Positions 3,051 to 29,455 of a stretch of 31,264 nucleotides of DNA are shown here, one piece after another (position 1 is the first letter of the stretch; each line of letters opens with the position of its first letter). A model generated the notes under the pieces. It was not told the DNA's origin and searched no databases. It saw only the letters and a program-made list of their open reading frames with translations. Source of the DNA: a virus; IMG/VR virus record IMGVR_UViG_3300042090_000433, positions 1 to 31,264 of that record, one strand, 5' to 3'. The translations under genes were made by a program, and so were the position numbers.

Positions 3051-3279
3051 ATCTGACTGATTTTTGGGGTTCTTATAGGATTTTTGCGCCTCGACACCAA
3101 AATATGTTTTCCACAGCAGAGTGGAGTGTACGCGGGCATTCCGTGAAGGGGTTGGCGGCCAACTGACTCGCCCGTAGCCAAACGCAAAAGCCCTGAACCC
3201 GATCTTTCACAACTGATTGGCAATCGTGAGGTCAGGCATTTCCACGGCCCAAGGGCCACAACAGTACATAGGAGAAAAT

Positions 3280-3612
3280 GTGAAATACAAAGAAAAACTT
3301 CAATTTGCAAACGAACTTCTCGCCGAAGGAAAACGTGCATCGGCTATGACCGATGAGCAGCTGCTCGATAACTTTGAAAAGGGCAAGCTCACTGGCTTTG
3401 AATACCCCGAGCTCATGAAGCGTGGATTTCGTGATGAACTTCTCCAGCGTTGTGACACGAAAGATGAGCGCATCGAAGTCTGGTACGAGTCTTTCGCGTG
3501 GGAACGTATAACGGCCTACGCCTCCCGCCTTCAACCACCTTCGATGGAAGAAGCCTTCGCTCACAGCGAAGAAGACCATGCGCGAGCCGAGATGATAGTG
3601 TCGGCCAACTAA
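3280..3612 (+). CDS. Hypothetical early protein (110 aa)
   Basis: This is the first rightward gene after the lysogeny switch. The best start is a GTG at 3280 (VKYKEKLQFANEL), preceded by TAGGAGAAAAT as ribosome site; an in-frame ATG at 3217 has no ribosome site. The protein is acidic and mostly helical: an N-terminal helix, a DEQLLDNFEKGKLTGFEYPELMKRG segment, and a C-terminal part with EERIEVW-type helices ending in MIVSAN. I recognise no family. Position suggests an early regulatory or host-takeover role, but nothing in the sequence shows it. Confidence 0.7.
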   Translation: MKYKEKLQFANELLAEGKRASAMTDEQLLDNFEKGKLTGFEYPELMKRGFRDELLQRCDTKDERIEVWYESFAWERITAYASRLQPPSMEEAFAHSEEDHARAEMIVSAN

Positions 3613-4155: not shown

Positions 4156-4380
4156 ATGACCGATGTCACGAAACTCAGCATTCCTCAACTCGTCGCACTG
4201 CTCTACGCCAACGCTTGCACCGACGACGTTCTGCACCGCCGCTTGGCGGTAGAGCTTTTCCAGCATCGCGGCGTCCGGATCAAGCTAGATGATGAACATC
4301 AGACCAGCTATCTAGACCTAAGTGATGAGAATAACGAGACCGTCCACACTCTCATTTCTTCCAACGCGCCAACCGACTAA
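4156..4380 (+). CDS. Small hypothetical early protein (74 aa)
   Basis: The start at 4156 (MTDVTKLSIPQL) is chosen over an upstream in-frame codon at 4105 because it has TTAAAGGAG seven bases before it and because 4105 would translate through the intercistronic hairpin. The protein is short and acidic: a helical N-terminal half (QLVALLYANACTDDVLHRRLAVELF) and a C-terminal half with charged strands. No family is recognised. It sits directly before the structured 4394-4521 intergenic region. Confidence 0.7.
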   Translation: MTDVTKLSIPQLVALLYANACTDDVLHRRLAVELFQHRGVRIKLDDEHQTSYLDLSDENNETVHTLISSNAPTD

Positions 4381-4393
4381 CAACCTCACATAC

Positions 4394-4521
4394 AAGAATT
4401 TTTCATTCCTCGTGTTCAGAGTGGCCGCCCAACATTCTGGACGCGAGGGATGAGAATTCTTTCCGAGTTTTCCAGCTTCGGAAGTATCAGGTGTAAGCAA
4501 AAATCGCCCCGCTGACGCGGG
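4394..4521 (+). ncRNA. Candidate structured RNA: 26-bp stem-loop plus two hairpins
   Basis: Arm 4394-4420 (starts AAGAATTTTTCATTCC) pairs with 4436-4461 (TCTGGACGCGAGGG...ATTCTT) over 26 base pairs with one bulged T and four wobble pairs, all U on the 5' arm and G on the 3' arm, closing a 15-base loop. A second hairpin, TTTCCGA/TCGGAAG, spans 4460-4484, and a third, CCCGC-TGAC-GCGGG, spans 4508-4521 just before the next ribosome site. No reading frame of note crosses it. It could be a leader regulating the 150-aa and primase genes, an RNase III processing site, or a small RNA. The structure is visible; the role is unknown. Confidence 0.55.
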
Positions 4522-4542
4522 TGGATAAATAGGAGCTACAAA

Positions 4543-4995
4543 ATGGTTCAATCGAGTCTGTTCCGCCGTGCCCTTCGCTACAAAGGTTCCCTTCCAAAAG
4601 TTGTTGCTGTCCGTCTGGGTTGTCAAGAAGCCGATCTTCAATTCCTCAAGACCTACAATTTCAGCGATGTTCAGTTCCGCATCCTCACAGATACCATCTG
4701 CAATCTTCCCGCTGGCCCGAAGTTTCAGCTTCGCAAGCTGATGCTCGATCTGGTGCGCCCTGCCGCCGATGACGAACTCAACACGGTGGTTTCACAGGAA
4801 GACATTTACACGCCAATCTTCGTGGCGTTCCTCGTTCAGCATATCGACGTGAATCTTGGTCAGGCATGGTTGCAGTTTGCCACTGGCCGTGAAAAGCGCG
4901 ATTCCCGCTTCGACTTCCGCAAGCTGCTCAAGGCGACTGAAGAGACCTTCCTCACCTACGATGCCGACGGCGTCAGTGATGTGGAGGTGCTGTAA
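4543..4995 (+). CDS. Hypothetical protein coupled to the primase gene (150 aa)
   Basis: It starts MVQSSLFRRALRYKG with GGAGC as ribosome site and ends in a TAATG overlap with the primase gene, so the two are translationally coupled and probably act together. The N-terminal 35 residues are basic (RRALRYKGSLPKVVAVRLG), suitable for nucleic acid contact; the rest is mixed helix with a long acidic C-terminus. No known replication accessory motif is visible. A replication-associated role is inferred from coupling alone. Confidence 0.75.
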   Translation: MVQSSLFRRALRYKGSLPKVVAVRLGCQEADLQFLKTYNFSDVQFRILTDTICNLPAGPKFQLRKLMLDLVRPAADDELNTVVSQEDIYTPIFVAFLVQHIDVNLGQAWLQFATGREKRDSRFDFRKLLKATEETFLTYDADGVSDVEVL

Positions 4996-7385
4996 TGGAT
5001 TTCAAGTCAAGAGCACTTCCATACGCCCAGATGGGCATTCCAGTATTTCCGCTCCAGCCCAACGAGAAAGTTCCAGCCAAGGGTTTCATGGCATGGCAGA
5101 TTGAAGCCACCACCGATTTGGCCAAGATCAACGAGTGGAACGATCAGAACTCTGAATGCAACTGCGGTTTGGTTGCTAAGAAAGATGGTGTCTGCTTCCT
5201 TGAGTTCGACATGCAGGGCGGCATGAAGGCTGCTGCCGAGGAAATGGGCCAGCCGATTCCAGTGACGCGTGTGCATCGCTCCGGTAAGGGTTTTGCCCAC
5301 TACATCTTTCGCCACACTGAAAAGAGCAACGCGCTGGGCAATCGTCAGGCCAACCTGCCGAACGGCCACGAATGGTTCTCACTCCGCTCGCTGAACCGTT
5401 ATGTGGTTGGTGCTGGCAGTGTTCATCCCAACGGCAACATGTACACCGTGCTCCGCGACATCGAACCAACGCCAATTCCTGATTGGGTGTTGGAGTGGGT
5501 CGCCAAGAACAGCAAGGCGGAAGTCAGCCAGAGCAAAAAGGATGGATCGCCTGTAGTTGATGAGTTCGATTTTGAAGACTTCATTGACCACTATGGTGAA
5601 GCCACGGCACTCGCCTACACCAAAGACAACAATTTCCACGTCACGGAAGTCTGCCCAGCTACTTGGACAGGTCCCGGCACTGGGCGTCGTCACGAGGGTT
5701 CCACGGAAACTGGCTTCTTCTACGATGGCTCACACTTGGGCTTCAAGTGCTTCGCGCAGGGATGCCCAGGTTCTGAAATGTCCATCGGTCAGCTGCTCAA
5801 GCACCTGAACCAGTATTGCGAGCCGTACCCTGAAAACATCTGGCCAGAGCGTGACATCAGTTCGTTTCTTGATGATGTGGAATGGGCTGACGACGTGGAT
5901 GCCGATGAAGTCATAAATGGTGTGCCTGAGCCAGCCGTAGAGCCTGTGGTCGTGGCTACAATTCCAGCTGCACCTGTTGCCAATCCTCCGGTGGCTGAAG
6001 TGGTGAAGCAAGTCGTGGCCGAGGTCACGGTTGACCTGTCTGAAGGCTACAAATACCCGGAACTCCGCTTCCCATACGAGGCACTTCCCGAGGGTCGTTT
6101 GAAGACTCTGACGGATGAGGCTTGCGCTGGTGAGCTTGATCCCGGTCTGGTGGTTCCAGCACTCATGGGGCTGGCATCGGCGGTCCCGGCCAAAAATGTT
6201 CACGACGGTGATCTACGCATCAACCTATATGTATGTCTGTTGGCGCTGGTGGGTGGTGGCAAGGATGTCGCCGTGGGCCGTGCAATTCAGGCACTGGGCC
6301 TTGCTAACCATGAAGGCCAGCTCTACACAGAGCACAATCCTTCGGGTGAACGTGCCGTGGCCATGCTGCTGTGCGATAAGAAGGACAAACCCGGACCCAA
6401 GCATCACTGCATCGTGAGTTACGAATTGGAAGAGACGTTGAAGAAGGCCAAGGCTGACACCTCTGGTGTTCTTCAGGCGATGCAGCACTTCTACGACCAC
6501 GACACCAAGACGCTGATGATGGATAGCAAGAAGGGCACCACGCAAAAGATCGACTGCCGCCTATCATGGCTGTCTGGATTCCCTGTTGGCGACAAGGAAA
6601 TTGAGCCCACCAAGTTCAAAAGCGCGTTTGGCGAAAACAGTTCCCACGGATTGTCTTCACGGCTGCTGTTCGGGTTCAGTGAAAGACGGTTTGATAACCG
6701 CAAGGCTCGCATGGCGCGCCGGAGCGTTCCGATGCAAGAGGTGGTTGCCCACGAGTCGTGCGACTATGCACCTGAGCCACAGGACATGAGCGATTGGGAC
6801 ACCAATTCCATCACGGCAATGCTGAGAGGACAGGTTGTAGAAGGCTTTGAACCCGATGCCGAACAGCAGTTCATCAACTGGAACCCTGAAGAGGATTACA
6901 GCGGTCGTGACACATTCCACGTTCGCAAGGTTGCTGTAATTGTTGCCCTGCTCAATGGCCATCGTCTTGTGGATATGGGGGATTGGCTGTTCGCCAAAGC
7001 GTTCATGGAGTGGCAGGGTCAGCTGCGCCGGACGTTCCAGTCCAGCAAGTCTCAGCGTGTGACGCAGGGTGCGTTCAATGAAATCGTTCTTGACGAAACC
7101 TCTAAGCGCACCGACCGACTGAAGAAAGGCACTCTGCCCACAAAGCAGGGCCGCATTACTGAAGTTGCCGACGGAGAAAAGGTCAAGAGATTCCACTGGA
7201 TCAACTGGGGCCAGATGTCGAATTCTATGCGGTGGGCAAAGTACGGCATGGACGTCGAGCGCACCATCGACCAACTTGTGCGTTCCAATGCTCTTCAATA
7301 TCTGACCGAGCGTGAAGAGAACAAGGACGGCAAGGAAATTTGGGTGGAGAACAAGAAGTACGTTCGCATCTTCGGAACATGGTAA
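4995..7385 (+). CDS. Bifunctional primase-polymerase with C-terminal ATPase-like domain
   Basis: This 796-aa protein is the likely replication protein. Residues 1-170 match the bifunctional primase/polymerase (Prim-Pol, PF09250) fold: GIPVFPL, the acidic pair E70 and D72 in FLEFDMQGG, RSGKGFAHY at 95-103 and VVGAGSVHPNG at 137-147. A Cys/His cluster (VCPATW, RRHEG, FKCFAQGC) around 210-260 may bind zinc. A Pro/Val/Ala-rich linker follows at about 310-350. The C-terminal half resembles DUF3987-type primase-helicase ATPases, with a P-loop-like LVGGGKD at 418-424. That P-loop is unusual: the invariant Ser/Thr after K423 is Asp and the first Gly is Ala. A terminator and the candidate origin follow directly, so origin recognition by this protein is plausible. 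Confidence 0.88.
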   Translation: MDFKSRALPYAQMGIPVFPLQPNEKVPAKGFMAWQIEATTDLAKINEWNDQNSECNCGLVAKKDGVCFLEFDMQGGMKAAAEEMGQPIPVTRVHRSGKGFAHYIFRHTEKSNALGNRQANLPNGHEWFSLRSLNRYVVGAGSVHPNGNMYTVLRDIEPTPIPDWVLEWVAKNSKAEVSQSKKDGSPVVDEFDFEDFIDHYGEATALAYTKDNNFHVTEVCPATWTGPGTGRRHEGSTETGFFYDGSHLGFKCFAQGCPGSEMSIGQLLKHLNQYCEPYPENIWPERDISSFLDDVEWADDVDADEVINGVPEPAVEPVVVATIPAAPVANPPVAEVVKQVVAEVTVDLSEGYKYPELRFPYEALPEGRLKTLTDEACAGELDPGLVVPALMGLASAVPAKNVHDGDLRINLYVCLLALVGGGKDVAVGRAIQALGLANHEGQLYTEHNPSGERAVAMLLCDKKDKPGPKHHCIVSYELEETLKKAKADTSGVLQAMQHFYDHDTKTLMMDSKKGTTQKIDCRLSWLSGFPVGDKEIEPTKFKSAFGENSSHGLSSRLLFGFSERRFDNRKARMARRSVPMQEVVAHESCDYAPEPQDMSDWDTNSITAMLRGQVVEGFEPDAEQQFINWNPEEDYSGRDTFHVRKVAVIVALLNGHRLVDMGDWLFAKAFMEWQGQLRRTFQSSKSQRVTQGAFNEIVLDETSKRTDRLKKGTLPTKQGRITEVADGEKVKRFHWINWGQMSNSMRWAKYGMDVERTIDQLVRSNALQYLTEREENKDGKEIWVENKKYVRIFGTW

Positions 7386-7411
7386 ATTCGGCACGCTGTA
7401 CCAGACACAAT

Positions 7412-7436
7412 GGAGCCACCTTCGGGTGGCTCTTTT
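7412..7436 (+). terminator. Intrinsic terminator after the primase gene
   Basis: The perfect 8-bp stem GAGCCACC / GGTGGCTC closes a TTCG tetraloop and is followed by TTTT. It lies 27 bases after the primase stop. It is nearly the same as the stem after the integrase. Confidence 0.88.
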
Positions 7437-7449
7437 GCTGCGACAATGT

Positions 7450-7851
7450 GTAACGCGTCGAAAGTAGTAACGCGTCGGTGGGGAGGTTGGGTGATTGTTG
7501 GATAGAACTCCGGGTAGAACGTGACCGAAGGGGAAAATGCGGAGTTCTATGTGGGGAGTCAAACCGACGCTGGAATCGAAAATAGGTGTATCTCTTGTTT
7601 TATGTGTAACGCGGTAACGCTGTCTCCCTATATAGAATGAAAAAACTCGGTTTAGAAAAAAGTCTCTTGTAAAGTTGGAAGTAGTTATAAATAAACATAC
7701 ATATATATATCTATATTGTATGTATGTACATGTTTTGTAATTGGTAACGCGGATTGTAACGCGTCAGTAACGCGTCGTGGTTGCGTTACCGTTTTTTTCG
7801 AACGTTTGATGAGAACTACCCCTATAGCGCGTTACCGCGTTACTGCGTTAC
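7450..7851. other. Candidate replication origin with GTAACGC iterons and AT-rich core
   Basis: Eleven copies of GTAACGC lie in about 400 gene-free bases. Forward copies start at 7450, 7467, 7606, 7614, 7744, 7756 and 7767. Reverse copies (GCGTTAC) end at 7789, 7835, 7843 and 7851. Several are extended to GTAACGCGTCG, and two sets are packed head to tail every 8 bases. Between the clusters (7622-7743) is a strikingly AT-rich stretch with ATATATATAT and an ACATACA/TGTATGT inverted repeat (7695-7723). Iterons flanking an AT-rich unwinding element beside a replication gene is the classic origin layout, as with P4 ori. No convincing gene lies in 7386-7995. Confidence 0.72.
7502..7550. repeat. 11-bp perfect inverted repeat inside the origin region
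   Basis: ATAGAACTCCG at 7502-7512 is exactly repeated in inverse as CGGAGTTCTAT at 7540-7550 with a 27-base spacer. It lies between the first two iteron pairs. It could be a protein site or a stem-loop used in origin function or in an RNA made across the origin. Confidence 0.6.
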
Positions 7852-7920
7852 TGATTCCTGCAAGACCAGCCCAACACCAGTATTCAATTCCAGCTGTTCC
7901 ATTGACTCTCCTAGTCGCTT

Positions 7921-7955
7921 AGACCCACTGACTCACAGCAGTGGGTCTTTGTTTT
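7921..7955 (+). terminator. Strong intrinsic terminator between origin and next gene
   Basis: The stem AGACCCACTG / CAGTGGGTCT is 10 perfect pairs with an 8-base loop, followed by TTGTTTTG. No protein gene lies between it and the terminator at 7436, so it must stop either read-through or a transcript that begins within the origin region. Confidence 0.88.
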
Positions 7956-7995
7956 GAAAAGTCAACTTCGAGGTTCTTCATTGAAGGAGAACTCA

Positions 7996-8223
7996 ATGCC
8001 GATCACCGCAGAAGACCTCATCACGCTGATTAAAGCTGCTGGGGACACCAAGTTATCTGTTCATCGCACCACGGAACCCCCAGAAATCTTCCTGACAGGT
8101 TGGCTCAACTTGAACTTGCTGGCCGAAGCATTAAATCTGCTGGCCTTGAACCCTGATTTCGATGTCCGCGAAATTGTTCCGTTTCTCAAAGCTGTAAACA
8201 GCGATGACTGGACTGAGCAATGA
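7996..8223 (+). CDS. Small hypothetical protein (75 aa)
   Basis: The start at 7996 (MPITAEDLITLIKAAG) is set by GAAGGAG eight bases upstream; an in-frame TTG at 7954 falls inside the terminator tail and is rejected. The protein is acidic and probably alpha/beta, with a hydrophobic middle (GWLNLNLLAEALNLLAL). No family is recognised. It follows the origin-region terminator and precedes the HNH-kinase gene by 39 bases, so the two are probably transcribed together. Confidence 0.7.
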   Translation: MPITAEDLITLIKAAGDTKLSVHRTTEPPEIFLTGWLNLNLLAEALNLLALNPDFDVREIVPFLKAVNSDDWTEQ

Positions 8224-8262
8224 CCACAGTTCGCCCTACAGCGATTACAGCGAGGCTTGCTA

Positions 8263-9036
8263 ATGCCTAGCTCTCCAACTGGGTTATGCAAGGATTGCGG
8301 CTCGCGTGCAGTCGCCAATGGCTATTGCGCCAAACACCAAGTCAGCAACGAAGCCGCGTTGCGCTCAAAGACACATGATCGTTATCGTGATGCCAATGAT
8401 CCGATTCGAAAGTTGTACAAAACTGCACGTTGGCAAGGAACACGAGAGATTGTATTGCGCCGCGATATCTTATGCGTGTCATGTGGTCACAAGGTCGCAA
8501 CCGAAGTCGATCACATCCTCTCGGCTCGTCTTGTCATAGACAACTATGGTCTTGCTGAGTTCTACAACCCCGAACGCTTGCAAGGGTTGTGTCACGAGTG
8601 TCATAGCAGCAAGACAGCATTAGAGTGTGGCTTCACAGGTCGCAAAGGAACGAAGCTGACTAATCTTGGTGATCGTCGCAATATGACTGTCGTATGCGGC
8701 CCAGCAGGTTCGGGAAAAACAACGTTCGTAGCGAATACCAAAGCGCCAAACGATTTGACGTGGGATTATGACGTCGTGATGCACGACCTGACTGGCTTGC
8801 CAATGCACCAAGGATTGCAGGGTGCTGTTGGTAGCGTGCTGGCTCATCGTGACCAATGGATTCAGGCCACTGAGTACAGTGCCAACCACTGCTGGCTAAT
8901 CGTGAGCAACCCCAAAGCAGCGATTGTGAAGCTGCTAGAAGAAGCAGGAGCCAAGGTAATCGTGATGGATACGAGCGCAGTAGAGTGTGCAAACAGGTTG
9001 CAGCGTCGGTTCAATGAAGCCAATACGAATATCTAA
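8263..9036 (+). CDS. HNH nuclease fused to a P-loop kinase-like domain
   Basis: This 257-aa protein has three parts. Residues 9-25 form a small zinc ribbon (CKDC, CAKH). Residues 50-120 are an HNH nuclease: C71-C74, D83-H84 in EVDHI, N102 in NPERL and CHECH at 110-114. Residues 141-257 form a P-loop domain starting MTVVCGPAGSGKTT (Walker A at 146-154), with an Asp pair in WDYD at 168/170 and a late CANRLQRRF segment, like polynucleotide-kinase/AAA_33 proteins. HNH genes next to terminase genes are common in cos phages, where they assist DNA cutting during packaging; a fused kinase-like ATPase is not the usual form. Start ATG 8263 is preferred over TTG 8257. Nuclease assignment is firm, kinase activity is inferred. 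Confidence 0.85.
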   Translation: MPSSPTGLCKDCGSRAVANGYCAKHQVSNEAALRSKTHDRYRDANDPIRKLYKTARWQGTREIVLRRDILCVSCGHKVATEVDHILSARLVIDNYGLAEFYNPERLQGLCHECHSSKTALECGFTGRKGTKLTNLGDRRNMTVVCGPAGSGKTTFVANTKAPNDLTWDYDVVMHDLTGLPMHQGLQGAVGSVLAHRDQWIQATEYSANHCWLIVSNPKAAIVKLLEEAGAKVIVMDTSAVECANRLQRRFNEANTNI

Positions 9037-9080
9037 CCGCTAATTGCAGAGTCGGCCTCGCCGGGGGCGGTGGGGTACTC

Positions 9081-9195
9081 GGGTCTCATATACCCGCGAG
9101 ACCCTTGGATCTTCCATCGTCAAGTAAGCACGCCCCGACGCCAGCCGTTTTTCCATGTGTATCCGATATTTTAGCCACAACGTCTGCAATATCGG
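9081..9195. other. Candidate cos/pac site with two inverted repeats
   Basis: The gap between the HNH gene and the small terminase gene (9037-9214) holds no convincing gene. It contains a G-rich stretch (9061-9080), a perfect inverted repeat GGGTCTC/GAGACCC (9081-9087, 9098-9104) and another, CCGATATT/AATATCGG (9163-9170, 9188-9195). Phages with an HNH gene beside terS usually carry the packaging site here. The exact cut cannot be read from sequence. Confidence 0.4.
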
Positions 9196-9214
9196 CAATT
9201 TGAAAGCTCAAGTT

Positions 9215-9640
9215 ATGGGTCGTAATCGTACTCCAACAGCAATACTCGACACGAAGGGTGGCTTCCTCAAGCACAAGAACCGTCAGCAGGAACGTGTTGA
9301 CGAGCCAACCACAGACCGTCCTCTCGGTGGCCCACCCAAGCATCTTTCATCTGAAGAAAAGAAAATCTGGAAGAGTCTTGAGAAGCAGATGCTTCCTGGC
9401 GTTGTGTTTGAGTCTGACCGCACACAGTTTGAACTGTTGGTTCGTCTGAAGACCAAGATGACGTTCAACTACGAAACGATGTCATCGGCTGACAAGGCTC
9501 TTCTTGTTTCTCTCGGCTCCAAGTTTGCCATGAACCCAGCAGACCGCAGCAAGGTTGCTACCACAGCACCCAAGAAATCTTCATTACAGCAGTTCCTCAA
9601 TCGCAAGCCTACCAAGCCGAGCACAGACGCAGTTCAGTAA
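9215..9640 (+). CDS. terS: Phage terminase small subunit, P27 family
   Basis: This 141-aa protein recognises the packaging site and hands DNA to the large terminase. The N-terminal MGRNRTPTAILDTKGGFLKH, with a downstream PLGGPPKHLSSEEKKIWKSL, is characteristic of the P27 family (PF05119). Length is close to the family norm. Start ATG 9215 is chosen because family proteins begin at MGR.RTPT; an earlier ATG at 9155 adds 20 unrelated residues and covers an inverted repeat. The ribosome site is weak. The C-terminus is basic (KKSSLQQFLNRKPTKPS). It is separated from the large subunit gene by the capsid gene, which is unusual. Confidence 0.9.
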   Translation: MGRNRTPTAILDTKGGFLKHKNRQQERVDEPTTDRPLGGPPKHLSSEEKKIWKSLEKQMLPGVVFESDRTQFELLVRLKTKMTFNYETMSSADKALLVSLGSKFAMNPADRSKVATTAPKKSSLQQFLNRKPTKPSTDAVQ

Positions 9641-17365: not shown

Positions 17366-17761
17366 ATGCCCATTGAAATTGAAGGCCTCGCCGACTTGTC
17401 TGAACTTCTCACGGAGCTTACTCCGAGGGCAGCGAAGAGGTACTTGTCGCGCTGCGCGGAACCCGCTGCTCAAGTCGTCATTGACGCAATGGAAGAGACC
17501 GTTCCTGTTGGCGTTGGTGTTCTTGAAGAGGGCATGGGTTGGCAAAAGAAGTGGGGCAACGATGGTGATGAAACCACGATGGAAATCAACATCGGCCCGT
17601 TGAAACCGTTCTTCTGGGGATCGCTGCAAGAGTTTGGCACCGCGACGCAACCTGCTCAGCACTGGATGGGAACCGCGTGGGAAACCAGCCGCGATAAGTG
17701 CCTTGATGTTTTTGCTACTGAAGCCATCGGGTTACTTCAGGATTTGGAGAACAAGAGATGA
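17366..17761 (+). CDS. HK97 gp10-like tail completion protein
   Basis: This 131-aa protein has the HK97-gp10 (PF04883) shape: an N-terminal helix (LSELLTELTPRAAKRYLSRCAEPAAQVV), a DAMEETVPVG segment and the KPFFWGSLQEFGTATQPAQHWM stretch, where the EFGT...PA.... motif is characteristic. It acts at the head-tail interface. ATG 17366 is chosen because the family begins with a short N-terminal strand before the helix; in-frame codons back to 17192 encode residues unlike the family. The ribosome site is weak. The stop overlaps the glycosyltransferase start as ATGA. Confidence 0.83.
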   Translation: MPIEIEGLADLSELLTELTPRAAKRYLSRCAEPAAQVVIDAMEETVPVGVGVLEEGMGWQKKWGNDGDETTMEINIGPLKPFFWGSLQEFGTATQPAQHWMGTAWETSRDKCLDVFATEAIGLLQDLENKR

Positions 17762-18456
17762 AGGTTAGCGCCATCATGCCCGTTGGTTATGGAGACAGGT
17801 ACTTTCAGGTCGCACTGAACAGCTTCCTCTCCCAGACCTACGAAGGCGATCTTGAGCTTATCGTGCTGGACAACAGCGCAGAGCCTATTGAGCACCTGCT
17901 TCCAACCGATGAACGCATCAAGTATCACCGCTGTACCCGGATGCCTGTTGGCGCTTTGCGTAACCTCGGAACTTCGTATGCCACAGGTGAAGTTTGCATC
18001 TCGTGGGACGAAGACGACTGGTATGCAGACACCCGAGTTGAAGAGCAAGTCACGCGGCTTGAAGAGACAGGTAAGTCGGTCACTGGCTGGCACAACGTCC
18101 TGTATTACGACACTTCTAACAGCGGAACATACAAGTATTTCTACGAGCCAACAGGCCGGAATCACCCACCCTATGCATGTGGCACTTCCCAGTGCTACCT
18201 CAAGTCGTGGTGGGAGGGACATAAGTTCCCCGATACAGGCGTTGAGGACTTTGGCTTTCAGCTTGAAGCACTTCACCTGAACTTGCTGGACAGCTGTGAC
18301 GCAGGTCAGTTGTGCGTGGCCAGAGCGCACGGCGATAGCAAATGCCCACCCCAGTTTGGACACAAACAGTTTCCCGCAGTGAGCAAAGACTTGCTGCCCC
18401 AAGAGTTCTTCAACGCAATCCGCGCTGTGGAAGCAAATCCAGTACAGGAGCAATAA
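17758..18456 (+). CDS. Family 2 glycosyltransferase
   Basis: This 232-aa protein has a GT-A fold. The N-terminal VSAIMPVGYGDRYFQVALNS and SQTYEGDLELIVLDNS segments match GT2, as does RNLGTSYATGEVCISWDEDDW with the DEDD metal/nucleotide-sugar motif at 84-87. A Cys-rich middle and a VEDFGFQLEA segment, which may supply the acceptor-side acidic residue, follow. No membrane segment is visible, so it would act in the cytoplasm. It overlaps the gp10-like gene by 4 bases and is followed after three bases by the tail tube gene, inside the late operon. Known precedent: some actinobacteriophages glycosylate capsid and tail tube proteins. A virion protein substrate is the favoured guess. Confidence 0.87.
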   Translation: MKVSAIMPVGYGDRYFQVALNSFLSQTYEGDLELIVLDNSAEPIEHLLPTDERIKYHRCTRMPVGALRNLGTSYATGEVCISWDEDDWYADTRVEEQVTRLEETGKSVTGWHNVLYYDTSNSGTYKYFYEPTGRNHPPYACGTSQCYLKSWWEGHKFPDTGVEDFGFQLEALHLNLLDSCDAGQLCVARAHGDSKCPPQFGHKQFPAVSKDLLPQEFFNAIRAVEANPVQEQ

Positions 18457-27112: not shown

Positions 27113-29455
27113 ATGAGTCAATGCTTACAAACAACAACTGCGTGCGGAACGTCTGAAGGCTACAACACCACGATGTCTGTGTTGGTTGGACAAGTGGTGG
27201 TGGCACAAGGATACTGCAAAGCCATCGGCGTCACGGGCACAGGTGGAATCAGAATTGACTGGCTTAACTCTGCTGGGACGTTGCTGAGTTCCACCACCAG
27301 CGCGACCACAGTTACCGGAACAAGCAGCTGGACGCTCTGCAAGGTCGTAGGAACGGCACCAGCGTCCACAGCCTACGCTCGCTTCGCGTTCTACACGACC
27401 TCTTGCACCGCCGGATACTTCCAGTTCGATGACTCGATGATGCAGCTCCAGTCTTCATCCCTGGACGAGGTGCCCCAAGGCAACACGTTCAAGTCTGTCA
27501 CGGCGATTGACCCGAACGGAAAAGCCATCATTGACTTGTCTCAGGCTCACCTGAACAAGACAGCTTCAAACATCACCTTCGCATCTGGAGCGACGATTGA
27601 ATCACTAAAGCCAGCGGCTGCTGGTGCCGATGTCACCGCGAACAATACCGCTGCTGATACAGCGAAGGTAAACGGGGTGGTGTCTAGCAGCATCAGTCCG
27701 ATTGCAACCCTTATGCCCGCACAAGCTGGTGCCGACAAGACAAGCCTGAACACAGCCGCAAATACGTCAGCCGTCGGCAGTAACACGGCATCAGATGTCA
27801 ACAACACCGTGCTCTCAGGTGGTGGCATCAACTTCGCCTCTGGTCTTCACACAAACAAGACACTAGACAACATCGGCGACGGTTCAACATACGCTCGTGT
27901 CAACTCTTCCGCGCTAACAGGCAACAACATCGACCCCAGCAAGTCGGGAATGTTGATGAAGGGCAGTTTGCCGCCAGTGTTGACCAATGGCTTCACATAC
28001 ACTTCGACCACATCTTCAATCACTTGGAACTGGCCAAGCAGCATGGCAATCTACAGAGCCGATGGCACCCTCACCTCAGTGGGCGCTGGCTCACAAAACA
28101 TCAGCGGTCTGGTTTCATCCATGCCGTACTACTTCTATCCGTGCTGGAACGAGACGACTCAGGCGTTGCAGTGGATTGGTAATTCCAACGTGGCTTCCGC
28201 CACGATGGTCGGCTATACAGGAAATGGAACAACGGGTTACGTCAATACGGCAACAGCGGTATCCACCCCAACGAACTTTTCCGTTGAATGCTGGGTGAAC
28301 ACCACCAACACGAGCAACAGCCTTCCGCTGCTATCTCTCAGTTCGCCTGACGCCATCGGAACGGCTACGAGCGTAGTGTTTGCCATGACGGCTCAGTGCG
28401 CCGGATACCTTGCAACGTCTTCATCCGCGTATGAAATCGAGTATGGAACTCTTCCAGCGGGACAGGTGTTGTACGACGGCATAACACATCACATCGTATT
28501 TACATGGAACGGCAGCACGAAGGGATACGCTGTTTACTATGATGGCGTACTGGTCGGCAGTGGTACTGCGGCTTCTGCTCTGTACTCCACGACTGGTCTC
28601 TATTGGCATATCGGAGCAGTGCAAGGCAAGGCGTCTGGATGGCTTTGGACGACCAACAGCTACTCGTGGGCTTCAACTGTCCTGTCCAATGCTGCCGTTT
28701 ACAGCACGGTGCTGACCACCGCGCAAGTTGCGAACCATTACCAGACCATGGTCAACCTCGGCTTGACGCAGTACAACACCGTGGTCACTGCTGACGCTCC
28801 GACCTACTGGTGGAAGCTGAACGAAACGTCAGGCACCACAGCAGCCGATTCAGCCGGAGGCAACACAGGCACCTATCAAGGTGGTGTGACGCTGAATCAG
28901 ACGATATCTTCCTTTGGTGCTGTTGGCTCCCCTGCCTGTGCATGGAAGGGCACCACATACCTCACGGCTCAGGCCGCGTCCGTGCAAGGAATGGTTCCCC
29001 TCACCAATGGCGCGATATCAGCCACACCGTCAGGTGGTACTGGTGGCTCAGGAGGAAGTGGCGGCGACGGTGGTGGTGGGTGCTTCTCACCGAATACACG
29101 TGTCAGGACGCAGCGCGGTGAAGTTCGCTTTGACGAACTGACGCTTGACGACTCGGTTCTGACAGCAGCCGGAACATGGCGGCGCATCGCCAAGTTGCTC
29201 ATTCATGACTGGACCTCTCCCATGCTCGACATGGGGGACGGTGAACTCATCACCTACAAGCACAGCGTTCTGGACGGCCACACATGGGAACGCGGCTGCA
29301 CTCTCTTCGGCGGCTCGCAGCTGTATTGCGGACAAGTCTGGAATCTTGAGACTGACGTTGATGAGCCGGATGAAATCGGCCAAAGCCCATACACAGAACA
29401 CAGCTACACGCTGGCGAACGGCCACGTCGTTCACAACGGATTTTCAACGAAGTGA
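27113..29455 (+). CDS. Tail fibre-like protein: beta-sandwich, LamG and C-terminal Hint domain
   Basis: This 780-aa protein directly follows the hub gene in the same frame after one TAA, with GGAGGAG 8 bases before its ATG. Residues 1-115 look like the rest of the beta-sandwich begun in the previous gene. Two GAD-TxxNTA-type repeats follow (near 165-210). Residues about 365-547 form a LamG/concanavalin-like domain (FSVECWVNTT, AVYYDGVLVG, WASTVLSNAAVYS), and 565-640 a truncated second one (YWWKLNETSGTTAADSAGG). A Gly-rich linker leads to Cys657, which starts a 124-aa Hint domain: CFSPNTRVRT, LDDSVLTAAGTW, YKHSVLDG and a final VVHNG. This would bind host glycans and may self-cleave before Cys657. 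Confidence 0.87.
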   Translation: MSQCLQTTTACGTSEGYNTTMSVLVGQVVVAQGYCKAIGVTGTGGIRIDWLNSAGTLLSSTTSATTVTGTSSWTLCKVVGTAPASTAYARFAFYTTSCTAGYFQFDDSMMQLQSSSLDEVPQGNTFKSVTAIDPNGKAIIDLSQAHLNKTASNITFASGATIESLKPAAAGADVTANNTAADTAKVNGVVSSSISPIATLMPAQAGADKTSLNTAANTSAVGSNTASDVNNTVLSGGGINFASGLHTNKTLDNIGDGSTYARVNSSALTGNNIDPSKSGMLMKGSLPPVLTNGFTYTSTTSSITWNWPSSMAIYRADGTLTSVGAGSQNISGLVSSMPYYFYPCWNETTQALQWIGNSNVASATMVGYTGNGTTGYVNTATAVSTPTNFSVECWVNTTNTSNSLPLLSLSSPDAIGTATSVVFAMTAQCAGYLATSSSAYEIEYGTLPAGQVLYDGITHHIVFTWNGSTKGYAVYYDGVLVGSGTAASALYSTTGLYWHIGAVQGKASGWLWTTNSYSWASTVLSNAAVYSTVLTTAQVANHYQTMVNLGLTQYNTVVTADAPTYWWKLNETSGTTAADSAGGNTGTYQGGVTLNQTISSFGAVGSPACAWKGTTYLTAQAASVQGMVPLTNGAISATPSGGTGGSGGSGGDGGGGCFSPNTRVRTQRGEVRFDELTLDDSVLTAAGTWRRIAKLLIHDWTSPMLDMGDGELITYKHSVLDGHTWERGCTLFGGSQLYCGQVWNLETDVDEPDEIGQSPYTEHSYTLANGHVVHNGFSTK

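Follow-up and report, generated by a model that had tools for sequence, protein, structure and literature searches.

Directly downstream of the gene for a 796-amino-acid replication protein, the virus genome studied here carries an array of GTAACGC repeats that we interpret, with a probability of roughly 85%, as the replication origin of an uncultured temperate phage, where the C-terminus of this protein would bind the repeats as iterons. The array spans positions 7450-7851 of the window, i.e., the whole stretch of 31,264 bp that was analyzed. Its layout is of a known kind, the 796-aa protein is new, and the repeated word is found again in the origins of numerous unrelated phages. The strongest evidence of the analysis is a comparison of the window with three other loci (L179, L180, and L181) that reveals which genes the array is inherited with.

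The initial annotation had described eleven GTAACGC words in both orientations, some of them eight bases apart, around a very AT-rich core with an inverted repeat and directly after a primase-polymerase (Prim-Pol) gene, and the exact positions bear out each of these points (Table 1). All eleven heptamers in 7450-7851 are exact copies, with seven forward ones followed by four reverse ones, and the first begins after a gap of 64 nt from the stop codon of the Prim-Pol gene. The 7606-7620 pair is a 15-nt perfect complement of 7829-7843, and every GTAAC or GTTAC in the intergenic stretch 7386-7995 is part of a full GTAACGC. Across the entire window the word occurs 14 times compared to 2.09 copies expected from dinucleotide shuffles (maximum of 6 in 100 shuffles). 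Its post-hoc choice was allowed for by scoring the clustering of any 7-mer in 402 bp in 60 shuffles, where the best cluster reached 4 copies as opposed to the 11 observed for GTAACGC. In stability, positions 7628-7727 rank lowest among all 100-bp segments of the 31,264-bp record; they fall within the iteron-flanked stretch and contain the 9-nt inverted repeat of the core.

Table 1. Features of the candidate origin region and of the adjoining genes in the window.
Feature	Coordinates	Strand	Basis or remark
150-aa ORF, probable operon partner	4543..4995	+	1-base overlap with start of replication gene
796-aa replication protein gene	4995..7385	+	Directly upstream of the array
Probable replication-gene terminator, stem-loop GAGCCACCTTCGGGTGGCTC and then TTTT	7413..7432	+	Stem scan
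Two outer forward iterons (7450-7456, 7467-7473)	7450..7473	+	Not positionally conserved in L179
Forward iteron pair GTAACGC-G-GTAACGC (7606, 7614; 8-bp spacing), left border of AT core	7606..7620	+	Identical in L179
AT-rich core (dyad 7695-7703/7719-7727), proposed to serve as DNA unwinding element	7621..7743		Stability scan
Forward iteron trio (7744, 7756, 7767)	7744..7773	+	All identical in L179
First reverse iteron, opposite the forward trio	7783..7789	-	Identical in L179
Reverse iteron triplet (7829, 7837, 7845; 8-bp spacing)	7829..7851	-	Heptamers identical in L179, spacer bases differ
10-bp stem-loop with T-rich tail, predicted intrinsic terminator on the far side of the origin region	7921..7948	+	Scan; largely conserved in L179
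Small ORF opening the gene block beyond the origin	7996..8223	+	Start codon picked by eye, ATG at 7996 within frame 7954-8223

The viral contigs contained a single relative of the 796-aa protein, at the locus L179 (recovered again as L193), and no close relatives were found in the genome contigs. L179 shares with the window a 95% identical integrase and residues 353-796 of the replication protein (444 residues, 81% identical), whereas its capsid and terminase genes differ (TerL 32%, TerS 38% identical) and the N-terminus of its replication protein is not confidently alignable to that of the window and gives no PF09250 match. The corresponding position of L179 contains eleven copies of GTAACGC, and the locus as a whole has 13 compared to 0.82 expected. 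Nine core iterons lie in register between the two sequences and are identical at 63/63 bases, while the remaining bases of 7575-7855 are identical at 162/218 (74%; p = 1e-7). Moved to any shifted position, the same iteron layout was less conserved than at its true one. The other two of the eleven L179 copies, at 7103 and 7118 with one of them inverted, are off-register with the outer pair of the window. The structural relatives L181 and L180 (TerL 65-68%, TerS 44-52% identical; capsid 70% and 45%, portal 73% and 45%, respectively) have no GTAACGC array. The proposed search of relatives for such arrays thus gave a divided result, and the interpretation as an iteron origin gains support from it: the nine iterons are perfectly conserved together with the replication protein and absent where only the structural genes are shared.

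Judging from this pattern of inheritance, the array belongs to the replication cassette and not to the packaging genes. Within the cassette it goes with the ATPase and C-terminal part rather than with the Prim-Pol domain because the N-terminus has been replaced in L179 while the array was kept. The proposed tie between the array and this Prim-Pol family therefore holds for the replication protein but not for the Prim-Pol domain itself. The comparison suggests that one primase type was exchanged for another at this N-terminus. The differing N-terminus of L179 (4303-5700) shows AEP-like motifs (DVDV, SGNG, and NAARI), which were read by eye and come without a Pfam match.

That the array follows the replication protein and not the packaging genes favors an origin over a packaging site of the pac or cosB type, which would be bound by the small terminase encoded just downstream. 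We regard such a site as very improbable, although the array does have the replication gene on one side and the HNH/terminase-small genes (8257-9640) on the other and arrays in L003, L044, and L119 adjoin terminase-like genes as well. The array is not conserved with its own terminase, given that L180 and L181 lack it at the higher TerL and TerS identities listed above while L179 with its lower ones keeps the core iterons base for base, and most GTAACGC arrays elsewhere lie within initiator genes.

In the 796-aa protein, an N-terminal PF09250 Prim-Pol domain (aa 7-164, E=1.3e-27 in Pfam) is followed by a Cys/His-containing linker and an orphan ATPase-like region at about aa 353-700 with the Walker-A-like sequence LVGGGKD (motif and domain limits read by eye). 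Its description as a putative primase-helicase draws on Pfam for the Prim-Pol domain and on the Walker-A-like motif for the ATPase-like region, which matches no recognized family and was not assigned to SF3. Phage and plasmid matches are confined to the Prim-Pol domain, the C-terminal half has no match in Pfam, among phages, or in the PDB, and predicted structures of this half and of the last 97 residues (pLDDT 36 and 44) are too low in confidence for use. We propose the last ca. 97 residues as a candidate iteron-binding domain.

The neighboring 150-aa ORF has no Pfam or PHROG match, and its counterpart in the same place of L179 is 36% identical. A 41% identical counterpart of the small ORF 7996-8223 follows the array in L179, and in the window the HNH/terminase-small genes lie downstream of this ORF. 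The first of these (8257-9036) encodes a fusion of an HNH endonuclease with a P-loop (AAA_33-like) domain that matches a terminase-small PHROG, and its counterpart in L181 (ORF 6782-7204) has only the HNH part. Two observations from the tail genes are recorded here in their own right. A 780-aa tail protein (27113-29455) with a LamG-type lectin domain may carry a self-splicing or self-cleaving domain, with a weak Hint_2 match at its C-terminus (23.1 bits, below the cut-off of 28.4) and an intein-like end, VVHNG. In addition, a Family-2 glycosyltransferase gene (17758-18456) is located within the tail gene block, and similar ORFs are present in L180 (6857-7531) and L181 (19887-20585).

The core is identical to that of L179 at 87/123 bases (71%), the matching core of L179 is likewise its least stable region, and a hairpin folds in both cores from different sequences. 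Folding scores of the core region (z about -5) are owed mostly to the oppositely oriented iterons and are not counted as support for an extruded structure. No turning point of the cumulative GC skew coincides with the array, which speaks against an origin, as does the lack of positional conservation of two of the eleven iterons. Rfam and tRNA searches found nothing. Terminator-like hairpins at 7413-7432 and 7921-7948 bracket the array region. The former has a GC-rich stem and was scored on the minus strand, as its plus-strand tail comprises only four T, and its GCCACCTTCGGGTGGC is conserved in L179. Repeat arrays also serve repressors and ParB-like proteins, so that the array could in principle be a regulatory operator or a centromere-like partition array instead of an origin. 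We give this reading hardly any weight because the array is linked to a replication protein and bracketed by the two hairpins, while no promoter-like site was found in 7000-8400 and no partition gene was recognized among the ORFs scanned.

Several known replication systems resemble the origin proposed here in part. The initial annotation had pointed to satellite phage P4, and this likeness stands for the arrangement of iterons beside a primase-helicase gene but not for the iteron word or the type of primase. As in the window, short iterons of either orientation directly follow the primase-helicase gene in P4 crr/ori; they are 8 bp long and lie about 9-10 bp apart, and crr (4291-4590) ends 46 bp from the alpha stop codon. 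However, the P4 iteron word (annotated repeats) is TGTTCACC and not GTAACGC. The P4 alpha protein, in which a winged-helix domain binds the repeats, carries a bacterial Toprim-type primase (PMC4234260), whereas the window encodes an AEP Prim-Pol (PF09250). No relation was found between the ATPase parts of the two proteins, with the C-terminal half of the 796-aa protein having no phage match. P4 alpha/crr proper was therefore ruled out, given that neither TGTTCACC-type iterons nor Toprim primase or alpha homology are present. In phage-inducible islands (PICI), two iteron sets flank an AT-rich region that adjoins the pri-rep gene (PMC6092414), and SaPI Rep uses its C-terminal domain to bind iterons that immediately follow its own gene (PMC7581432), but these are satellites without full structural genes while the phage of the window encodes capsid, portal, and terminase. 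With origins of this P4/PICI/SaPI kind the window shares repeats beyond chance, an AT-rich region flanked by them, and co-inheritance with the replication gene. The SCCmec helicase Cch2 similarly binds short repeats directly 3' of its gene through its C-terminal domain (PMC7581432), yet its iteron is AAGTG and its primase is a separate polymerase complex, compared to GTAACGC and a fused Prim-Pol in the window.

ORF904 of plasmid pRN1 combines Prim-Pol, helicase, and winged helix, and the origin lies directly downstream of its gene (PMC4234260). The 796-aa protein shares the fusion of a Prim-Pol, here to an ATPase-like region, and the position of the origin, and the hairpin in the AT cores of the window and L179 can be likened to the stem-loop of pRN1. 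However, pRN1 has a stem-loop of ca. 100 nt, an SF3 helicase, and no iterons, and we rejected a stem-loop origin of this type for the window with its iterons and an ATPase outside SF3 assignment. Lambda O-type and replisome-organizer origins such as SPP1 oriL consist of direct repeats and an AT-rich unwinding element (PMC6316719), and many initiator genes of this kind on viral contigs carry GTAACGC itself. The array of the window is intergenic and lies outside any initiator gene, and no O-type initiator gene was recognized in the window, so that an in-gene origin of this type was likewise rejected.

By analogy with P4 alpha, SaPI Rep, and Cch2, we infer a mechanism in which several monomers, or two opposed assemblies, of the 796-aa protein would attach to the GTAACGC iterons through their C-terminal ends. 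This binding would strain and open the AT-rich core at about 7628-7743, and the ATPase part would be loaded on the opened strands and unwind them as a helicase. The N-terminal Prim-Pol domain, or another N-terminal domain in the case of L179, would then make the first primers and replication would start from this site.

The idea that GTAACGC is unique to this phage was rejected by at least 120 stretches of viral contigs with three close copies. For 86 of these loci we took the ORF spanning the array, and matches to PHROG included replication initiation proteins (phrog_9474 in 31, phrog_2509 in 21), a DnaD-like helicase loader (in 15), and a replisome organizer. The initial annotation had linked the iteron word to no described system. 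No description of it as an iteron was found in a literature search that covered few subscription journals, but the word itself is frequent in phage initiator genes. At other loci the array is intergenic as in the window, i.e., between the gene of an 817-aa PF09250 + ATPase protein and terminase genes in an unrelated phage (G004/L005, with an AT/purine core), beside a DUF927 protein with a Cch-type helix-turn-helix domain (L080), or beside a zinc-ribbon primase-helicase (L072), in each case with GTAAC clusters on either side of an AT- or purine-rich tract. The Prim-Pol domain as such was rejected as the partner of the word, since PF09250 was found in 4/100 GTAACGC records and 1/50 control records without enrichment; four named Prim-Pol phages that we checked have no GTAACGC array. 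In the Thiohalocapsa phage LS06-2018-MD04 (L198), a dense ACCTTCG/GCTAAC cluster (3079-3480; ACCTTC 26 times in 400 bp) immediately precedes the Prim-Pol gene, inside or near an ORF annotated as RNA-binding protein, and is possibly an origin using another word.

Two control words were searched in the same way. The scrambled word CGATAGC gave 51 stretches and initiators of one family only (3/35 covering ORFs), while the reversed word CGCAATG gave 74 stretches with arrays in initiator genes (DUF1376 in 24/59 covering ORFs, Lin1244_N in 7/59). The reversed word is itself another iteron word, associated with an initiator family of its own (L203-L276, initiator ORFs). DUF1376 is rarely found with GTAACGC (4/86 compared to 24/59 for CGCAATG; p = 1e-7 with loci counted as independent despite possible kinship), and these sequence comparisons therefore indicate that iteron arrays within initiator genes are general and that the word tracks the initiator family.

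The same E. coli host offers a further contrast, as GTAACGC words are present in the protein O gene of E. coli phage 673R7 but no array is found at ydaU of the E. coli K-12 Rac prophage, which encodes a different N-terminus with nearly the same C-terminal DNA and was rejected as a GTAACGC origin. Within this E. coli family, the contrast argues that the DNA-binding domain of the initiator and not the host sets the word. Where 673R7 has GTAACGC, Rac carries several TGTTCAA-like words (L202, 7500-7610), which are candidate iterons of the Rac origin.

A different question is whether the region is an origin with iterons that are read by another factor, such as the product of the 150-aa ORF (4543-4995), the XRE repressor (2626-2997), or a host protein, with the 796-aa protein only being loaded there. 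GTAACGC is shared by initiators without detectable mutual relation, as a common external reader would predict. No homology could be detected between the C-terminus of the 796-aa protein and the O-type initiators using this word, and the low-confidence models of this C-terminus show no demonstrable DNA-binding fold. Nevertheless, we consider another reader rather unlikely, though by no means as improbable as a packaging site. The iterons are 100% conserved in L179, where the 150-aa ORF has an identity of only 36%, the word vanishes with the swap of the initiator N-terminus between 673R7 and Rac YdaU in the same host species, and CGCAATG as the second word goes with initiators of another family. 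We favor direct binding of the iterons by the 796-aa protein.

For a phage without a close isolated relative, the analysis provides a candidate origin at base resolution together with its likely initiator, and the comparison with L179 points to exchange of the N-terminal primase part while ATPase, C-terminus, and origin were retained. A broader generalization is tentative, and we lean slightly against it: phage origins may draw on a limited set of short iteron words, with the word following the DNA-binding domain of the initiator and with GTAACGC being used by winged-helix initiators whose own genes carry the array and, either independently or via exchange of binding modules, by several primase-helicases, and with a primase domain that can be swapped on a conserved cassette of ATPase and origin. 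If so, the word could be used to locate origins and to predict initiator specificity across uncultured phages. The recurrence of GTAACGC in the origins of many unrelated phage initiators, together with the use of CGCAATG by another family, already suggests that such words can serve to detect and type origins in viral metagenomes.
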